Shown in pieces: positions 44,701 to 45,738 of a DNA stretch of 45,738 nt (position 1 is its first letter; every line of letters starts with the position of its first letter). This DNA comes from Bacillota bacterium (GTDB taxonomy: Bacteria > Bacillota > Sulfobacillia > JAJZYS01 > JAJZLH01), in contig JAKAUI010000040.1 of the NCBI GenBank assembly GCA_021827745.1, positions 1 to 45,738 of the forward strand. The letters are read 5' to 3'. Below the pieces are notes generated by a model that was given only the letters and a program-made list of their open reading frames with translations, ran no database searches and was not told the DNA's origin. Position numbers and translations under genes: made by a program.

Positions 44701-44944
44701 CGAACACAAACGTCGCCCCGACAGGGGCGACGTGAGTCGCGGTACCACCCTTTTCCCCACCCCGAGCGGATGGGCTTGTGCGGGGCGCTTTGCCCCTCGC
44801 CCGATATCGGCGGCAGACCGGCCTCACGGCAACTCGGGGGGTCATCTTCTCGTCGGCCGGGACCAGGCTTTCACCGCCGCCTGGTTCTCTACGATCCGCG
44901 ACCGGCGATACTCTTCCCCTGTCATCGCACCTATGGGGTTTGTA
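44701..44944 (-). ncRNA. T-box riboswitch, Met specifier, controlling metG
   Basis: On the minus strand the leader carries GGAAGAGTA (K-turn region of stem I), a GGTGAAAGCCTGG arm, and a specifier loop GAAGATGACC whose codon is AUG (44845-44843), fitting methionine. The T-box sequence AAGGGTGGTACCGCGA is at 44752-44737. The terminator ACGTCGCCCC-TGTC-GGGGCGACGT (44733-44710) ends with TTGTGTTCG. Uncharged tRNA-Met should stabilise the antiterminator and allow metG transcription. Confidence 0.92.
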
Positions 44945-44979: not shown

Positions 44980-45098
44980 AATGAGGGCGGCAGCCTCGGT
45001 ACCTCGCTCAGCGCGTGATCGGCCATGGGCAGGCGAAGGACCGCCGCCTTCGGCGACAAGCCGTACGGCCCTCACACAGAGCGATGGGCGTGGTCATC

Positions 45099-45127
45099 CG
45101 CCGCCAGGGGGGATCCCCCAGGCGGCG
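45099..45127. repeat. Imperfect 29-bp palindrome in the metG/Prx intergenic region
   Basis: CGCCGCC (45099-45105) pairs with GGCGGCG (45121-45127) around a central GGGGG-AT-CCCCC core with an A-A mismatch. No T-run on either side. The remaining gap, about 44980-45200, shows no gene I can support; a promoter for the downstream gene is not clear. Confidence 0.5.
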
Positions 45128-45200
45128 TGGAAAGAGTCAACATTCGCTGAATCACACCGCATCGCGTCGTCTCAGATAGGTGGCAACAGGGTGGCGATGA

Positions 45201-45665
45201 ATGGTGGGCGTCCCAGACATCTCCCTCTCGGATCTTTTCTTGGACTTTCCGGCTACTCCGGACCGCAGCTGGCGTCAGGTGTTTGCCGACCACCGGCTCA
45301 CCGTCATTCACCTGATGCGGGCTGTGACCTGAGTAGGTTGTCAGCGCAACGCGCGCCAGTTGGCTGCGCAGACCACCCGCTGGGCCGCGGCGGACATCTC
45401 GGCGATCGCCGTGGCGCCCGCCACTCAGTCCAGTTGCGACCGCCACGCCGTCTCGATGTCGCTCACCATCCCGCTGCTGGCTGACCCGGATCGCCGTCTG
45501 TACAGCGCCTTGGCAATGCACAGGGTGTTCGCCGGGACGCTTCAGACCAGTGGAACGGCCATCGTCGACCACCAGGGGACTGTCCGCTATCTGAGGAGCC
45601 AGGCCAACCCCCAGCGCTCCCTGGATATGGCCGAGCTTGAGGCTGCACTGGCCCAGCTTCCTTAG
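45201..45665 (+). CDS. Peroxiredoxin-like (AhpC/TSA) protein with in-frame UGA, candidate selenoprotein
   Basis: ATG 45201 follows AGGGTGG at 6-7 nt. The frame is open to TAG 45665 (154 codons) except for one TGA at 45330-45332, codon 44. Around it the text reads HLMRAVT-UGA-VGCQRNARQL, exactly where relatives have a T-Cys-x-x-Cys redox motif. The later region fits the thioredoxin-like AhpC/TSA fold: IPLLADPDRRLYSAL, SGTAIVDHQGTVRYL and ANPQRSLDMAELEAAL. A SECIS-like hairpin follows at 45340-45373. It would reduce peroxides or act as thiol oxidoreductase with a Sec-x-x-Cys centre. The alternative is a pseudogene with a nonsense mutation. Confidence 0.65.
45340..45373 (+). promoter_or_regulatory. 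SECIS-like stem-loop after in-frame UGA
   Basis: GTCAGCGCA (45340-45348) pairs with TGCGCAGAC (45365-45373) with one A-A mismatch. An inner GCC-AGTT-GGC hairpin gives a 4-nt apical loop whose second base is G, starting 26 nt after the UGA; a 6-nt bulge lies on the 5' side. This meets the loose bacterial SECIS rules of spacing (about 16-37 nt) and an early loop G. Confidence 0.5.
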
Positions 45666-45681
45666 CTCGGGAACGAAGTCC

Positions 45682-45695
45682 GTCCCTTTGGGGAC
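45682..45695 (+). terminator. Weak hairpin after the peroxiredoxin-like gene
   Basis: GTCCC-TTTG-GGGAC, 17 bp past the stop, no T-run after it. Only a possible terminator. Confidence 0.25.
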
Positions 45696-45738
45696 AACCA
45701 TTATCTGGTAATTCTACCTCTTCGTGGGCAGGCGTTTT

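Follow-up and report, generated by a model that had tools for sequence, protein, structure and literature searches.

The stretch of DNA that was analysed, hereafter the window, comprises 45,738 nucleotides of contig JAKAUI010000040.1 from a Bacillota bacterium, and holds near its end a gene for a peroxiredoxin (Prx)-like protein whose features are collected in Table 1. A preliminary description of this DNA had proposed an open reading frame of 154 codons with its own ribosome-binding site, interrupted only by a TGA at codon 44. This is indeed what is found, given that the frame is preceded by a Shine-Dalgarno-like element and that codon 44 is its sole internal stop. The standard code allows this frame only 43 codons, and what a reading with translation table 11 leaves is no more than a 101-codon frame that starts from a TTG located 3' of the UGA. 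For this reason, standard gene calling would truncate the gene or miss it. The opposite strand carries an open reading frame of 209 amino acids (45072-45701) without any match in Pfam, which is best taken as a shadow of the high-G+C coding frame.

Table 1. Positions of the features of the Prx-like gene in the window
Feature	Position	Strand	Remarks
CDS, Sec-containing Prx-like protein (154 aa, U44)	45201..45665	+	ATG start, TAG stop, UGA read through
Shine-Dalgarno-like AGGGTGG	45188..45194	+	6 nt 5' of ATG; putative, from sequence
UGA codon 44, almost certainly decoded as selenocysteine	45330..45332	+	column shared by all close homologues
Cys47 codon TGT, second residue of UxxC	45339..45341	+	aligned to the AhpE peroxidatic Cys
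Bacterial SECIS-like hairpin within the CDS	45351..45369	+	loop AGUU 45358-45361, bulged U 45365

The source genome is a draft MAG of 1.62 Mb that is 96.8% complete, and the contig ends 73 bases past the gene. The downstream neighbourhood is supplied by an overlapping contig, C12, which shares the final 307 bases apart from 4 mismatches and continues beyond them. Members of the genus have the gene as a divergently oriented neighbour of metS, accompanied by the same downstream genes, a locus that is common to three species; none of the neighbours at this locus is an evident functional partner. Upstream of metS, on the minus strand at 44730-44760, the sequence GGGTGGTACCGCG was recognized by eye as a T-box antiterminator motif, which suggests a T-box leader for metS.

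The protein obtained by reading through the UGA matches the Pfam families AhpC-TSA (PF00578, 40.5 bits, cut-off 26) and Redoxin (PF08534, 32.5 bits, cut-off 26.6). For AhpC-TSA_2 (PF13911, cut-off 27 bits) the score is 22.6 bits for the window protein, 28.6 for the homologue from genome G082 and 32.2 for that from G003. No NCBIfam model reaches its cut-off with the window protein, the best match being the SelL-related NF040769 with 36.8 bits (46.3 for the G082 homologue) at a cut-off of 120. The AlphaFold2 model (pLDDT 84.7) has a helix at residues 45-55 directly behind U44, and the predicted position of U44 just before this helix is where thioredoxin folds usually have their active site. The best matches among solved structures are Bcp1, PrxQ, AhpC and AhpE, the first three being the best Foldseek hits. 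In the alignment with AhpE, the peroxidatic Cys is matched by Cys47 and the Thr by U44, indicating that the protein is not a canonical peroxiredoxin but belongs to the Prx-like UxxC type. Indeed, the canonical motif PxxxTxxC with its Thr is not seen in this protein, the Thr position being Sec44, and the redox site UxxC (T-U-V-G-C) replaces TxxC/TxxU. The comparison made earlier, in which the UGA was set against a T-C-x-x-C motif of AhpC/TSA-like relatives, therefore holds for the Trx-like/Prx-like branch, in which this motif occurs, and fails for AhpC proper, which has T-x-x-C with a Cys that aligns with Cys47. The Trx-like UxxC site is best read as that of a Prx-like thiol:disulfide oxidoreductase or peroxidase.

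The conservation of the UGA was followed in a first set of 61 genomes (the source genome and 60 relatives) and in a profile search over 154 genomes of the class. In the first set, three other genomes carry the gene, each with exactly one internal TGA, and the profile search adds G082, G083 and G085 with the TGA again in the same column. Thus, in the alignment of codon 44 with homologues that had been proposed as a check, each of the six closest homologues found among the 154 class genomes has a single TGA, always in this column, and no other internal stops. These homologues have identities of 69-70% (G001), 45-47% (G002) and 26-34% (G003, G082, G083 and G085), and over this whole range the protein is conserved on both sides of the UGA. 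They share the pattern MRxxxUxxCxxxxRQLA, with M39, R40, U44, C47, R52, Q53, L54 and A55 invariant. A search of GTDB contigs with the single sequence gave no match, and a search with the profile found the three nearest relatives, the nearest named records being JAJZLY01, JAJZLH01 and JAJZYS01; plasmids searched for the gene gave no match. In the wider phylum, the TGA is found at this place also in relatives from G380, G429 and G509, where it gives UxxC in most cases and UMLG in one paralogue; these relatives are SelL-like and more distant.

Given that one base change suffices to turn TGC or TGT into TGA and that the frame holds a single in-frame stop, the preliminary description had also considered a nonsense allele, that is, a pseudogene derived from a Cys-type Prx-like gene. 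The conservation of the UGA refutes this proposal, since six further homologues, with identities as low as 26%, have their TGA in this column too, within a protein that is conserved on either side and has no other internal stops, and since the genome has a complete selenocysteine machinery, all of which makes a pseudogene very improbable. The outcome that had been named as refuting a selenoprotein, namely a genome that lacks sel genes, or stops scattered at random through this gene in close relatives, did not occur. An error of sequencing or assembly could be suspected in a draft MAG whose overlap with contig C12 has 4 mismatches; the same TGA is nonetheless present in independent assemblies of other species, which leaves such an error with a negligible likelihood. 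The conserved TGA together with the constant distance of the hairpin (see below) excludes both a pseudogene and a sequencing error for practical purposes.

Other UGA-containing genes of thioredoxin-like or Prx-like proteins were observed in the genomes searched. Weaker, BCP-like matches with TPGU in G034 (L045) and G035 (L046) were rejected as orthologues and left out of the orthologue counts, because they belong to a different Prx branch (PrxQ/BCP type). In these proteins TPGU replaces TPGC, and the presence of TPGC in G139 and G140, which are of the same genus as G035, points to a likely recent Cys/Sec exchange. Genomes G380 (L055) and G509 (L053) each have two adjoining Sec-type Prx-like paralogues and, in addition, two tRNA-Sec genes above cut-off. 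A Trx-like protein with a hydrophobic N-terminus and the motif T-U-T-A-C, encoded in G099 (L043, 1339-1920), is likely another selenoprotein.

The check for selA, selB, selC and selD that had been proposed for this genome found all four genes, so that the machinery is complete. The tRNA-Sec lies at C49:68877-68968 (72.7 bits, anticodon tca by ARAGORN), SelB is full length and over its cut-off with 358.8 bits, SelA reaches 479 bits, and SelD reaches 343 bits with one in-frame TGA. The selA gene is followed by selD at G000:C2:40009-42277, where the TGA of the latter falls within G-U-G-C-K, and SelD of this organism is thus itself likely a selenoprotein. The catalytic subunit of formate dehydrogenase, FdhA (L057, at about 1735; G000:C2:12455-14329), likewise contains a TGA, within R-T-U-H-A-P, which corresponds to the classical UHxP site; a match to positions 1-53 of the family model is located approximately 2.4 kb further on, in another frame. 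These two UGA-containing genes are positive controls for selenocysteine decoding in the source organism. The tRNA-Sec was found in every carrier of the Prx-like UGA gene that was tested for it, G001 and G002 having been tested for SelA, SelB and SelD only, and it is also present in relatives that lack the gene. The machinery is therefore a general property of the class and carries no weight as evidence on its own, unlike the conserved UGA.

A genome-wide reassignment of UGA, or its readthrough as another residue such as Trp or Cys, would equally leave the frame open with TGA as a residue. It is, however, extremely unlikely, given that the frame of 154 amino acids has one TGA, placed at the redox position, that ordinary genes like metS and selB have open frames with table 11, that tRNA-Sec and SelA, SelB and SelD are present, and that TGA is the ordinary terminator of the homologous gene itself in G002, G003, G082 and G083.

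A hairpin with the spacing and the apical G of a bacterial SECIS had been described downstream of the UGA, and the comparison of homologues bears it out by its constant distance and by covariation. In the window the apical loop begins 25 nt after the UGA and the G occupies the second loop position. When the best hairpin with a G at loop position 1 or 2 was sought in ten sequences, its loop was AGUU, AGUUA or AGUUG and began exactly 25 nt after the UGA in 10 of 10. In seven of these ten, its stability was reached by only 1 to 21 of 400 synonymous recodings; in G002, G083 and G082 the hairpin was not clearly better than the 400 recodings made of each. The stem has compensatory changes, and the covariation score of the simple 7-bp stem in 12 aligned sequences was 0.494 versus 0.177 after shuffling (none of 500 reached 0.494) and at most 0.238 in slid controls, a comparison that is tilted towards the stem, as the structure was derived from these same sequences, which are moreover related. 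For the Leu codon in the loop (U+10), all 7 of 7 homologues use TTG or TTA, which account for no more than 7 of the 126 remaining Leu codons in these genes. In L047, the sole distant Cys homologue examined, this codon is also TTG, which means that the Leu codon alone does not prove selection for a SECIS. The window hairpin taken by itself has no unusual stability in a longer fold (z -0.81), where a competing pairing exists, and its support is thus that of the comparative tests and not of the thermodynamic stability of the single window sequence. The divergent homologues offer a clean example of a SECIS within a conserved protein motif (RQL), which is useful for refining SECIS models.

The sel genes, the conserved UGA column and the covarying hairpin support the proposed decoding of the UGA, and from these sequence comparisons UGA44 is almost certainly read as selenocysteine. 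We are highly confident that the gene encodes a bona fide selenoprotein, with SelB-directed insertion of Sec at UGA44, a Prx-like product of 154 residues and the redox site U44-V-G-C47. The basis of this reading is computed, namely the frame, the family, the fold prediction, the Sec machinery and the conservation of the UGA and of the RNA hairpin, and from it we infer the actual insertion of selenocysteine, the selenenylsulfide cycle and the substrate. SelB carrying Sec-tRNA-Sec would dock on the hairpin directly 3' of UGA44, and the ribosome would place selenocysteine at this codon and continue to the TAG. The product would be a thioredoxin-fold protein with U44-V-G-C47 where the first active-site helix begins; the attacking selenolate is most likely that of Sec44, which would then form a selenenylsulfide with Cys47. 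The predicted activity is that of a thiol:disulfide oxidoreductase or of a reductant-dependent peroxidase. Decoding of UGA as Sec is in competition with release factor 2, and for this reason the UGA could be imagined as a regulated switch, with Sec inserted only when selenium is available and a truncated peptide of 43 residues that matters otherwise. Nothing points to a function of such a peptide and the C-terminal part is conserved as protein, so that a switch of this kind has very little probability compared with the full-length selenoprotein.

The uncultured Bacillota lineage thereby gains a selenoprotein that is firmly supported computationally, and the understanding of Sec decoding is unchanged by this gene. 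A literature search on AhpC-like and Prx-like members of the Firmicutes selenoproteome gave no paper, and no close Cys orthologue of the MRxxxUxxCxxxxRQLA proteins was found. The nearest named family is that of the SelL-related redox proteins (NF040769), which share the Prx-like fold and a redox motif with the window protein; the latter lies far below the cut-off of this family and has UxxC, whereas the redox motif of SelL is UxxU. AhpE and the PrxQ/BCP peroxiredoxins match the window protein in sequence and fold but are canonical TxxC proteins, with the catalytic Cys and the Thr aligned to Cys47 and Sec44, respectively. The cd02970 peroxiredoxin-like family (PMC13188914) likewise belongs to the Prx-like branch and has Sec as the first residue of its motif, and differs by having UxxS instead of UxxC. 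That Prx-like UxxC selenoproteins are already known, as had been stated, is clear from publications since at least 2005: a report on the Sargasso Sea describes such proteins with UxxC replacing TxxU (PMC1088965), Prx-like 1 (pfam00578, UxxC) is abundant in GOS (PMC2398784), cultured bacteria also hold them, including a 'distant Prx-like' protein in Syntrophomonas wolfei (PMC1794560), and they are listed in a 2026 review (PMC13188914). It is possible, and we propose it tentatively, that the proteins with MRxxxUxxCxxxxRQLA form a separate, unnamed and Sec-only Prx-like subfamily across Bacillota, in which the codons for RQL(A/R) serve at once as a SECIS whose AGUU loop is invariant and lies 25 nt 3' of the UGA. 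The window protein has in common with the published Prx-like UxxC selenoproteins (PMC1088965, PMC2398784, PMC13188914) the PF00578 domain, the UxxC site, the downstream SECIS-like hairpin and the Sec machinery, while it differs from them by its divergent sequence, its scores below all NCBIfam cut-offs and its Bacillota lineage; by sequence it would thus represent a divergent, apparently Sec-only subfamily of a group that is itself known.
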